Shown piece after piece: positions 57,828-59,427 of a DNA stretch of 64,000 nt. The stretch is taken from assembly GCA_944325085.1 (NCBI GenBank), contig CALUYT010000032.1:1-64000 (forward strand). The letters run 5' to 3'. Made by a program: the position numbers and the translations under genes. Within the stretch, counting starts at the first letter, position 1. Each line of letters opens with the position of its first letter. The stretch comes from Candidatus Gastranaerophilales bacterium (GTDB lineage Bacteria > Cyanobacteriota > Vampirovibrionia > Gastranaerophilales > Gastranaerophilaceae). The notes under the pieces are model-generated. The model worked only from the letters and a program-made list of their open reading frames with translations, made no database searches and was not told the DNA's origin.

Positions 57828-57857
57828 TTAAAAGGCAGATTCATTACCAATCTGCCT
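57828..57857 (-). terminator. Terminator of 57892 gene
   Basis: On the minus strand AGGCAGATT (57857-57849) and AATCTGCCT (57841-57833) form a perfect stem with a T-containing tail. The 3' UTR element lies seven bases before it. Confidence 0.88.
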
Positions 57858-57864
57858 AGAAATG

Positions 57865-57874
57865 TGTGAGTAAA
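57865..57874 (-). promoter_or_regulatory. 3' UTR element complementary to own 5' leader (57892 gene)
   Basis: On the mRNA: UUUACUCACA, about 17 bases after the stop and seven bases before the terminator stem. It is perfectly complementary to UGUGAGUAAA of the 5' leader at 58323-58332. Confidence 0.65.
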
Positions 57875-57891
57875 TATATATTTATAAGTCT

Positions 57892-58305
57892 TTATGCAAA
57901 TAAATCAGCAAACGGACCGTTTGGATCTTGAATATGAGCAGCAACTGCACCATCTTCAGCAAGTTTCATGCCAGGCAAAACAACATTTTTTACACCATTT
58001 GTTACACTTGCCACTTGAGCTGCTGAAACTTTGTAATTTGAATAACCCAAACTTGCTAAAATTGCATTTGTGCTTTGTGCTAAATCCATATCCTCTTTAG
58101 TAAATTTAGCTAATTGAGCACCATACAAATATTGAGTATTTTTTGTTAATAAATCGGTTTCATTTTCCAAACCCTTAAATGTAGAATTTGTACTAACACT
58201 TTCCCTTGTTTCTTCTGCTTTCTTAGCTTCTTTTGAAGCACCTTGACCGATTGCAAAGTTATAATTATTATAACTGTTGTTGAAGTCGTTAAACTTGATT
58301 GCCAT
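57892..58305 (-). CDS. Small paralog A of 58-kb pair, PFA-LFA C-terminus
   Basis: A 137-residue protein with no Cys, signal peptide or membrane segment. N-terminus: Asn/Tyr-rich with GQGASKEAKKAEE. Middle: NSTFKGLENE, then helices with Ala. The C-terminus is A-H-I-Q-D-x-x-x-P-F-A-D-L-F-A. The same C-terminal motif and a similar G-x-G-x-x-K start are found in the upstream paralog at 58489, so they come from a duplication. AGGAG ribosome site inside a leader with a hairpin (58318-58342). Own promoter (TTGAAA 58373-58378, TAAAAT 58351-58356), a 17-bp operator and terminator. Function unknown. Confidence 0.75.
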   Translation of the reverse strand: MAIKFNDFNNSYNNYNFAIGQGASKEAKKAEETRESVSTNSTFKGLENETDLLTKNTQYLYGAQLAKFTKEDMDLAQSTNAILASLGYSNYKVSAAQVASVTNGVKNVVLPGMKLAEDGAVAAHIQDPNGPFADLFA

Positions 58306-58322
58306 GTCGGTTCTCCTTATCT

Positions 58323-58332
58323 TTTACTCACA
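58323..58332 (-). promoter_or_regulatory. 5' leader element complementary to 3' UTR (57892 gene)
   Basis: UGUGAGUAAA in the mRNA, nine bases before the AGGAG. It lies in the loop and 3' flank of a hairpin, UAUCUU (58342-58337) with AAGAUA (58323-58318), which places the pairing element in the loop. Confidence 0.65.
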
Positions 58333-58393
58333 TAATAAGATACGGCATGTATTTTAAGAATCTTTAGCTTTTTTTCAATTTTAACAATAGTTT

Positions 58394-58410
58394 TGTAACA
58401 TTTGTTTACA
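58394..58410 (-). promoter_or_regulatory. 17-bp operator-like site, identical to 48185
   Basis: TGTAAACAAATGTTACA on the minus strand. It is 89-105 bases upstream of the 58305 start and centred about 58 bases upstream of the predicted transcription start. It is exactly the sequence of 48185-48201 relative to its gene. Confidence 0.6.
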
Positions 58411-58421
58411 TTATATTTATA

Positions 58422-58455
58422 CAAAAATAAAAGGCCAACTTGATTAAGTTGACCT
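58422..58455 (-). terminator. Terminator of 58489 gene
   Basis: On the minus strand AGGTCAACTT (58455-58446) pairs with AAGTTGGCCT (58441-58432), one wobble, followed by TTTTATTTTTG. Confidence 0.88.
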
Positions 58456-58461
58456 AAATAT

Positions 58462-58473
58462 GTGAGTATAAAA
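58462..58473 (-). promoter_or_regulatory. 3' UTR element complementary to own 5' leader (58489 gene)
   Basis: UUUUAUACUCAC in the mRNA, 15 bases after the stop and six bases before the terminator stem. It is perfectly complementary to GUGAGUAUAAAA in the leader at 58941-58952. Confidence 0.65.
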
Positions 58474-58488
58474 TTATAATTTATTGAA

Positions 58489-58929
58489 CTATGCAAATAA
58501 TTCAGCAAAAGGAAAGCTTTTATCTTGAAGGTGAGATGCTACAAAAGCATATTCTACACCTTTTGATGCTTCTTTTGTTCCATCTGCAACTCTTGCTGCA
58601 TCTGTATTTGAATATTTTAATTCAAATAATTTTTGATCATATTTTCCGCCCAATGAGTTGATATTATCAAAGTGATATCCTGAAACTAATTGACCTTTAC
58701 TTACTTCATTTGCAGAAGCTAAACCTTGACCTTCCGGAGAATTAGTTTTAACTTTGCCTGAAATTGTTTCAAGAGTCAATGATAAATCAGCTCTATCAAT
58801 ACTATTTTTAAATTCAATAGGTTTTGCTGAAACTACATTTTGTGATTTTTTAACTTCACTTGTTTGTTTAGCTTTACCAACACCATATACTTGATTAAAA
58901 CCGTCATTTCCGCTAATTCCGTGTACCAT
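58489..58929 (-). CDS. Small paralog B of 58-kb pair, PFA-LFA C-terminus
   Basis: A 146-residue hydrophilic protein without signal peptide, Cys or membrane segment. N-terminus: FNQVYGVGKAKQTSEVKKSQN, matching the pattern of paralog A. The middle is Ser/Lys/Asn-rich. The C-terminus is A-S-H-L-Q-D-x-x-x-P-F-A-E-L-F-A. The conserved end suggests a secretion or partner-binding tag. GGAG ribosome site directly after the complementary leader element. Own terminator. Function unknown. Confidence 0.75.
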   Translation of the reverse strand: MVHGISGNDGFNQVYGVGKAKQTSEVKKSQNVVSAKPIEFKNSIDRADLSLTLETISGKVKTNSPEGQGLASANEVSKGQLVSGYHFDNINSLGGKYDQKLFELKYSNTDAARVADGTKEASKGVEYAFVASHLQDKSFPFAELFA

Positions 58930-58940
58930 TTCGAATCTCC

Positions 58941-58952
58941 TTTTATACTCAC
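58941..58952 (-). promoter_or_regulatory. 5' leader element complementary to 3' UTR (58489 gene)
   Basis: GUGAGUAUAAAA in the mRNA, directly followed by the GGAG ribosome site (58940-58937). Pairing with the 3' UTR would place a duplex next to the ribosome site. Confidence 0.65.
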
Positions 58953-59181
58953 CAAATAATGATAAACTTATTTATTTTAATAATCATCCTATCATTTGAT
59001 TTTCCATCTCGTATATATATAAAGTATTTCATTCGTAAATAATTGCCTTTATCATTTAGTATATTAATATTTCTTAACATAATTCCCAAATTATTGATAT
59101 TACTAACCATATGGCTAATAGCAATATTAACTAGGAATGGTAATATGGACATGGAAGTATAATATAAAGGATTATTTAAAA

Positions 59182-59427
59182 TTGAACACTTTTAAAACAA
59201 AAAGAATTCTTAATCAAAGAAAAGAACTTACAGAAAGAGAATTAGAAGTATTACAATACGTAATGCAAGGACTAACTAACAACGAAATTGCAGAAATTTT
59301 AATGATTACACATCACACAGTAAAAGCACATGTTGCAGCAATTATACGTAAACTTGGTGTCAGAAACAGACTAGATGCGTCAATGTTCGCAAAAGAAAAT
59401 GACCTTTTTAATCTTCATCAAGACTAA
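59182..59427 (+). CDS. Stand-alone LuxR/GerE-type HTH regulator
   Basis: An 81-residue DNA-binding protein consisting almost only of the LuxR-type helix-turn-helix ([25 protein letters not shown], then [22 protein letters not shown]), with no receiver or sensor domain. I choose TTG at 59182 because AAGGA lies 10 bases before it; an ATG at 59137 has a poor site. Its last 20 bases overlap the lepA end on the other strand. Regulon unknown; the operator set in this window is one possible target but nothing links them. Confidence 0.82.

Follow-up and report, generated by a model that had tools for sequence, protein, structure and literature searches.

Background

Pairing between the two ends of a bacterial messenger RNA (mRNA) is known from only a few cases, each of which comes from one species or a narrow group. 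In Staphylococcus aureus, the 3' untranslated region (UTR) of icaR pairs with its own leader and can cover the Shine-Dalgarno sequence; in other staphylococci, the icaR 3' UTR lacks the motif (PMC3868564). Accounts of Bacillus subtilis hbs (Braun 2017, as described in PMC7821165 and PMC8406224) report a protective 14-nucleotide (nt) interaction between the 5' and 3' UTRs of one mRNA, and that of S. aureus RNAIII reports long-range pairing near both ends of a transcript that encodes a small protein (PMC7821165). In Vibrio cholerae, OppZ and CarZ are autoregulatory small RNAs (sRNAs) that derive from 3' UTRs and act as processed RNAs (PMC7398697). No paper on UTR structure in the Melainabacteria was found in the literature searched. 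Here we analyze two paralogous genes, A and B, in a stretch of 64,000 nt from a Candidatus Gastranaerophilales bacterium (contig CALUYT010000032.1, positions 1 to 64,000; hereafter the window), in each of which a leader element, the 5' arm, was noted to be complementary to a 3' arm just before the gene's own terminator. Comparison with relatives shows the two ends to be, by all appearances, jointly selected for complementarity within a gene, which suggests that end pairing is a conserved control of message life or translation.

Conserved complementary ends

Both pairs of arms are present where they had been reported (Table 1), with perfect complementarity over 10 nt in gene A and 12 nt in gene B, and each 3' arm lies between the stop codon and a terminator consisting of a hairpin and a T-run. 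The leader arm of gene B directly abuts the GGAG of its Shine-Dalgarno sequence, as had been noted. The further remark that the arms share a core, differ outside it and change together is likewise correct; it is a minor point within the window, which offers only two genes, and it holds across relatives.

Chance or simple-sequence complementarity might be suspected in an A/T-rich genome, in which all-A/T runs of 10 nt do exist. However, when leader/3'-flank complementarity was ranked over the 72 genes of the window, B and A came first and second among the G+C-containing runs, and the one further 10-nt run consists entirely of A/T. Leader/tail pairs taken from different genes of the window reach 10 nt with at least three G/C in 0.16% of cases, A-with-B combinations included, and GTGAGTA occurs four times in the 64 kilobases (kb), every time in the arms of A and B. 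Given these results and the conservation of both arms over ten genera despite very diverged proteins, we reject chance pairing, the probability of which we consider negligible. Elsewhere in the genome, there is no GTGAGTAWAA site with the leader/3'-arm layout; the remaining sites, in coding sequence or a terminator stem, were ruled out as extra members. Rfam gave no match at the gathering score, the best being sub-threshold (22.1 versus 80 bits).

In relatives, the module recurs in the order of a sigma-28-type promoter, UGUGAGUAA, a variable protein of 110–160 amino acids (aa), UUACUCACA and a terminator (loci and genera are denoted below by L and g numbers). Homologs of protein A are encoded in 45 of the 46 genomes of the genus, and a profile search detected them also in a second and a third genus; the named relatives are mostly metagenome-assembled genomes of Candidatus Gastranaerophilales or Melainabacteria, several of them labelled gut or rumen. 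A search that used DNA only, with no protein information, found the promoter plus TGTGAG in 133 of 383 genomes and in 23 of the 41 genera of the family (reversed-pattern control, approximately 25–30 hits), and many of the hits precede open reading frames (ORFs) of 110–160 aa that also have a 3' arm. The non-redundant set consists of 144 loci, namely those whose ORF reaches 100 aa or more and those found by homology, and 123 of them contain a perfect core-containing helix (helix 1) of at least 8 base pairs (bp); it is found in ten genera (g1, g2, g7, g9, g13, g14, g20, g22, g35 and g38). The 21 loci without such a helix include seven, in g6, g18, g19, g25 and g26, that resemble chance promoter hits; four with one-base insertions or a bulge (L091, L102, L184, L191); three with an imperfect helix (L022, L005, L059); and L178, which has a perfect anti-Shine-Dalgarno helix in place of helix 1. 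The others are considered below, where the evidence is weighed.

At L104, L109, L119, L121 and L122, a B-type leader and 3' arm surround small proteins without obvious similarity to A or B; the UTRs are therefore better conserved than the coding sequences. Several loci of the second genus (L092, L093, L097, L098, L101, L090) have a duplicated 3' arm, often around a short hairpin insert, and in L097 the 13-nt TCACATTTACTCA stands on both sides of a 23-nt insert, resembling the target duplication of a tiny mobile repeat.

Covariation of the two arms

Arms were swapped between loci, using wide windows, and the pairing was compared with that of each gene's own arms. Among B paralogs, none of 20,000 shuffles paired as well as the own arms; two of 20,000 did so in genus g7 and, when all loci were stratified by genus, again none of 20,000, these being counts, not probabilities, that take no account of shared descent. 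Individual loci illustrate how the duplex is retained. Leaders with AAATG face CATTT in g7, and those with AAATA face TATTT. In L091 and L102, TGTGAG-A-TAA(A) faces TTTA-C-CTCACA, each arm having gained a single base at the matching position, and L184, from another genus, has TGTGAG-A-TAAATGTA facing TACATTTA-A-CTCACA, with the insertion at the same place in both arms. At L207 and L219–L221, the 3' arm is without its final CA and the leader AAATG faces CATTT, a shifted register that keeps 10 bp. Since the flanks track each other within a gene, RNA pairing is favored over a DNA site for a single protein. On this comparison of sequences, complementarity is maintained by compensatory changes in the flanks, in the coupled insertions and in a second helix of genus g13 described below, and not in the invariant core; the compensatory changes that the original prediction proposed to look for in homologs are thus found in the former and not in the latter.

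The same observations bear on an arrangement similar to that of OppZ and CarZ, in which the 3' element would be the seed of an sRNA cut from the 3' UTR together with the terminator and would act in trans by pairing with the leaders of the mRNA it came from and of paralogous mRNAs. A nearly invariant, seed-like core next to the terminator and common to the paralogs would allow cross-pairing over 7–8 bp, and the conserved A/U-rich stretch just upstream is a possible processing site. Yet in each of the 21 genomes where A and B occur together, own arms pair better than crossed ones, which argues against a main role in trans, and GTGAGTAWAA is present in no other leader of the window's genome. Furthermore, most genomes of the genus have one detected A-type gene and, therefore, no second target to maintain. 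We consider this arrangement unlikely.

Promoter and predicted position of the arms in the transcript

The flagellar/WhiG sigma consensus is TAAA / GCCGATAA (PMC8325347), and the promoter of gene A fits it. The leader arm of gene A, like those of its relatives, lies downstream of TAAAG-N16-CCG (spacers of 13–19 were allowed in the search), and 14 nt separate CCG from GTGAG in all 52 of the 52 loci, which comprise A-type and second-genus members. The usual geometry of sigma-28-type promoters places the transcription start (+1) at the arm or within about two bases of it. Because of this geometry and the constant distance, UGUGAGUAA is probably the 5' terminus of the mRNA. The genome encodes a FliA/WhiG sigma factor (L076; 242.7 bits versus a curated cut-off of 189.6) and has two matches to a flagellar rod family. 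At the other end, 78 of 79 scored loci have the 3' arm ahead of the terminator hairpin, with a median gap of 8 nt, whereas the distance between stop codon and arm ranges between about 1 nt and more than 140 nt. The lone locus without a called hairpin is L103 (also L176), with its arm at +142, just before the terminator. Promoter spacing and terminator position together would place both arms inside the mature mRNA.

The alternative raised in the original prediction, that the arms are inverted DNA sites for one protein (an operator, or sites for looping or recombination) and complementarity is a by-product, retains some room from the near invariance of the core in both copies and from the fixed distance of the 5' copy from the -10 element. 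It is disfavored by flanks that differ between genes and match within a gene, by paired one-base insertions and register shifts that preserve the duplex and not a fixed site, and by the placement of the 3' copies within the transcription unit, before the terminator, in the same 78 of 79 loci. A check for inversion found identical gene orientation relative to the promoter in all gene loci read. We judge a pair of DNA sites very unlikely. The pairing of mRNA ends in cis that had been proposed for the two genes agrees with the joint retention of both arms in ten genera and with their gene-specific flanks, coupled insertions and shifted registers, and RNA-level end-to-end pairing is, on these comparative grounds, well supported.

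TGTGAG was ruled out as a generic part of sigma-28 promoters, as two other TAAAG-GCCG sites in the genome are without it. Further sigma-28-like promoters in the genome (L074, L075) precede a LysM-like protein and a protein starting MGLAASQARLL, and a wider motility or surface regulon under such promoters is likely. In genus g25, loci L232, L234 and L235 combine a sigma-28 promoter and a ATGTGAGA leader with ORFs of 59–60 aa and no 3' arm; they may represent a separate gene family with the same start region. The region upstream of gene B is unlike that of gene A. No promoter could be identified in it, and it is marked by ATAGGATGA, which a pattern search recovered in 19 of 46 genomes, against six hits for the reversed-pattern control. 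In the window and in L104–L122, this motif is preceded by GATGGAAAATC and stands at a variable distance of 18–36 nt from GTGAG.

Predicted folds and a second helix at the ribosome site

In whole-mRNA partition function calculations, 66 of 72 homologous mRNAs have an arm-pairing probability above 0.5 (the median being about 1.0) and, when the arms pair, the 5' arm is fully paired. In some lineages, a second helix can be recognized between the ribosome site or start codon and the part of the 3' UTR that separates the stop codon from the 3' arm. In g13 this helix is gene-specific yet complementary, with 7 of 20,000 shuffles as good as the own combination; examples are AATCAAGAT/ATCTTGATT in L195, AATGAGAT/ATCTCATT in L197, GAGAACG/CGTTCTC in L201 and TTGAGAT/ATCTCAA in L205. 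The signal is weaker in B paralogs (383 of 20,000 shuffles as good). Complements of the Shine-Dalgarno region, 9–10 nt long, are present in the 3' UTR of L178 (g32), where helix 1 is gone and AGGAGTATTA/TAATACTCCT match perfectly, and of L191 (g27; AATTATAAGG/CCTTATAATT). The conserved stretch GACTTATAAATATATA of gene A has a weak CUUAU/AUAAG pairing to the ribosome-site region.

These findings raise the possibility that translational repression is the main role, as in icaR, with the 3' UTR covering the Shine-Dalgarno sequence and start codon and the 5'-end helix serving as a mere anchor. The 3' UTR is predicted to lie over the Shine-Dalgarno sequence in g13, g32, L191 and some B paralogs, the covariation in g13 is in line with this role, and helix 1 of gene B itself adjoins the GGAG. 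However, g2, g7, g22, g35 and gene A have a weak second helix or none, and the Shine-Dalgarno sequence is largely open in the predicted folds of most A-type mRNAs. We view repression as the main role as a distinct, if doubtful, possibility. The second helix is the best sign of translational control, but it does not belong to the module in general and is weak in the window genes.

Other features of the locus

The coordinates of both genes and their elements are collected in Table 1. Proteins A and B share a weak C-terminal similarity (44% over 45 aa), and a Pfam/NCBIfam search with both gave nothing over the family cut-offs. The predicted structure of protein A has a mean predicted local distance difference test (pLDDT) score of 65, its confident part being the C-terminal helices only. 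Divergent from gene B, an orphan 96-aa protein with a LuxR-type DNA-binding domain is encoded on the plus strand (59137-59427), and it might be a regulator of gene B. GUGAGUAA resembles the 16S rRNA stretch GGGUGAGUAACGC, presumably by coincidence.

Table 1. Genes A and B of the window and their associated elements
Feature	Position	Strand	Remarks
Gene A	57892..58305	-	ORF, 137-aa protein without assigned function
5' arm of gene A, TGTGAGTAAA	58323-58332	-	predicted mRNA 5' end (+1 within about 2 nt), inferred
3' arm of gene A, TTTACTCACA	57865-57874	-	shortly upstream of terminator
Sigma-28 (FliA/WhiG)-type promoter of gene A, TAAAGATT-N12-GCCGTATC	58339..58366	-	sequence and consensus match
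Conserved 3'-UTR stretch of gene A, GACTTATAAATATATA, from stop codon to 3' arm	57875..57890	-	recurs in many genera
Intrinsic terminator of gene A	57833..57857	-	hairpin AGGCAGATT..AATCTGCCT, then TTTT
Gene B, paralog of A	58489..58929	-	ORF, 146-aa protein
5' arm of gene B, GTGAGTATAAAA	58941-58952	-	adjoins Shine-Dalgarno GGAG at 58937-58940
3' arm of gene B, TTTTATACTCAC	58462-58473	-	read from sequence
Intrinsic terminator of gene B	58433..58454	-	hairpin GGTCAACTT..AAGTTGGCC, then TTTT
ATAGGATGA motif, upstream of B-type leaders	58984..58992	-	pattern search

A proposed closed mRNA

We propose that each gene is expressed as a single-gene transcript whose 5' end would fold back on its own 3' UTR. 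A helix of 9–13 bp between the first bases of the mRNA (UGUGAGUAA...) and their complement, which lies shortly before the terminator hairpin, would close the molecule into a panhandle-like form. With the 5' arm at the predicted +1 of a sigma-28-type promoter, the 5' terminus would be buried in this helix, beside the terminator stem. Its main consequence would most likely be that 5'-end-dependent decay enzymes are denied access, so that decay is slowed, and that the ribosome site is held next to the 3' end. In several lineages, the complementarity between the Shine-Dalgarno/start region and the 3' UTR points to an added translational down-regulation, which would set in after synthesis of the 3' UTR. 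We infer that the effect of pairing is 5'-end protection, translation control or both, and we consider the closed mRNA as a whole, with 5'-end protection and a ribosome site held by the 3' end, to be probable.

Several observations weigh against this model, in addition to the shared descent on which the shuffle counts are silent. L160 and L186, among the 21 loci without helix 1, retain a leader arm but have no 3' arm, and in a clade of four others (L038, L040, L044, L046) loss of the 3' arm went along with drift of the leader. One arm without the other, the observation that had been named as contrary to the original prediction, is thus encountered, albeit rarely, and pairing is kept elsewhere in the ten genera. 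A-type genes of the window's own genus give no signal for own over swapped arms, because these arms hardly vary. In genes A and B of the window, the Shine-Dalgarno sequence is 63–69% unpaired in the predicted fold; with the ribosome site predicted mostly open, these two genes give no indication of translational repression. In most genera, the second helix is either missing or without gene specificity, and it was rejected as a universal feature on this ground. Finally, the GUGAG/CUCAC core is almost invariant (66–70 of 72 per pair) and shows almost no covariation, and the base 3' of CTCACA and the upstream stretch ACTTATAA are also conserved without consistent partners. As pure pairing would let the core drift by compensated changes, something besides pairing constrains it, and the core may be read by another factor, be it a protein, an RNase or a trans RNA.

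A more far-reaching version would make this a portable bacterial closed-loop UTR module, placed around many diverged small proteins, with the invariant core read as a duplex by a dedicated factor and the 5' terminus joined to the terminator, a counterpart of the eukaryotic closed loop. We offer it tentatively and think it unlikely.

Comparison with known systems

Comparison alone yields here a conserved, multi-gene case of end pairing with natural compensatory changes, so that simple reporters could now be used to ask whether closed-loop mRNAs are a general strategy of bacteria. In addition, it draws attention to a group of small, fast-evolving proteins without names that a motility-type sigma factor would control in gut Melainabacteria. 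The case is similar to icaR in the pairing of a 3' UTR with its own leader and in the compensatory logic, whereas here the partners would be the predicted 5' terminus and the nucleotides that come last ahead of the terminator, in ten genera and many paralogs. It resembles hbs in being a 5'-3' UTR interaction inside one mRNA; according to the accounts cited, the hbs interaction shields an internal RNase Y site, whereas here the 5' terminus itself is predicted to be paired. RNAIII is described as a single dual-function RNA, unlike the present family of ordinary-looking mRNAs. What the module shares with OppZ and CarZ is 3' UTR sequence that is complementary to its own transcript around the ribosome site, but its gene-specific flanks favor pairing within one molecule. 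The pairing would thus work much as in icaR, hbs and RNAIII, and what appears new is the involvement of the predicted 5' terminus, the invariant core, the many genes and the depth of conservation.
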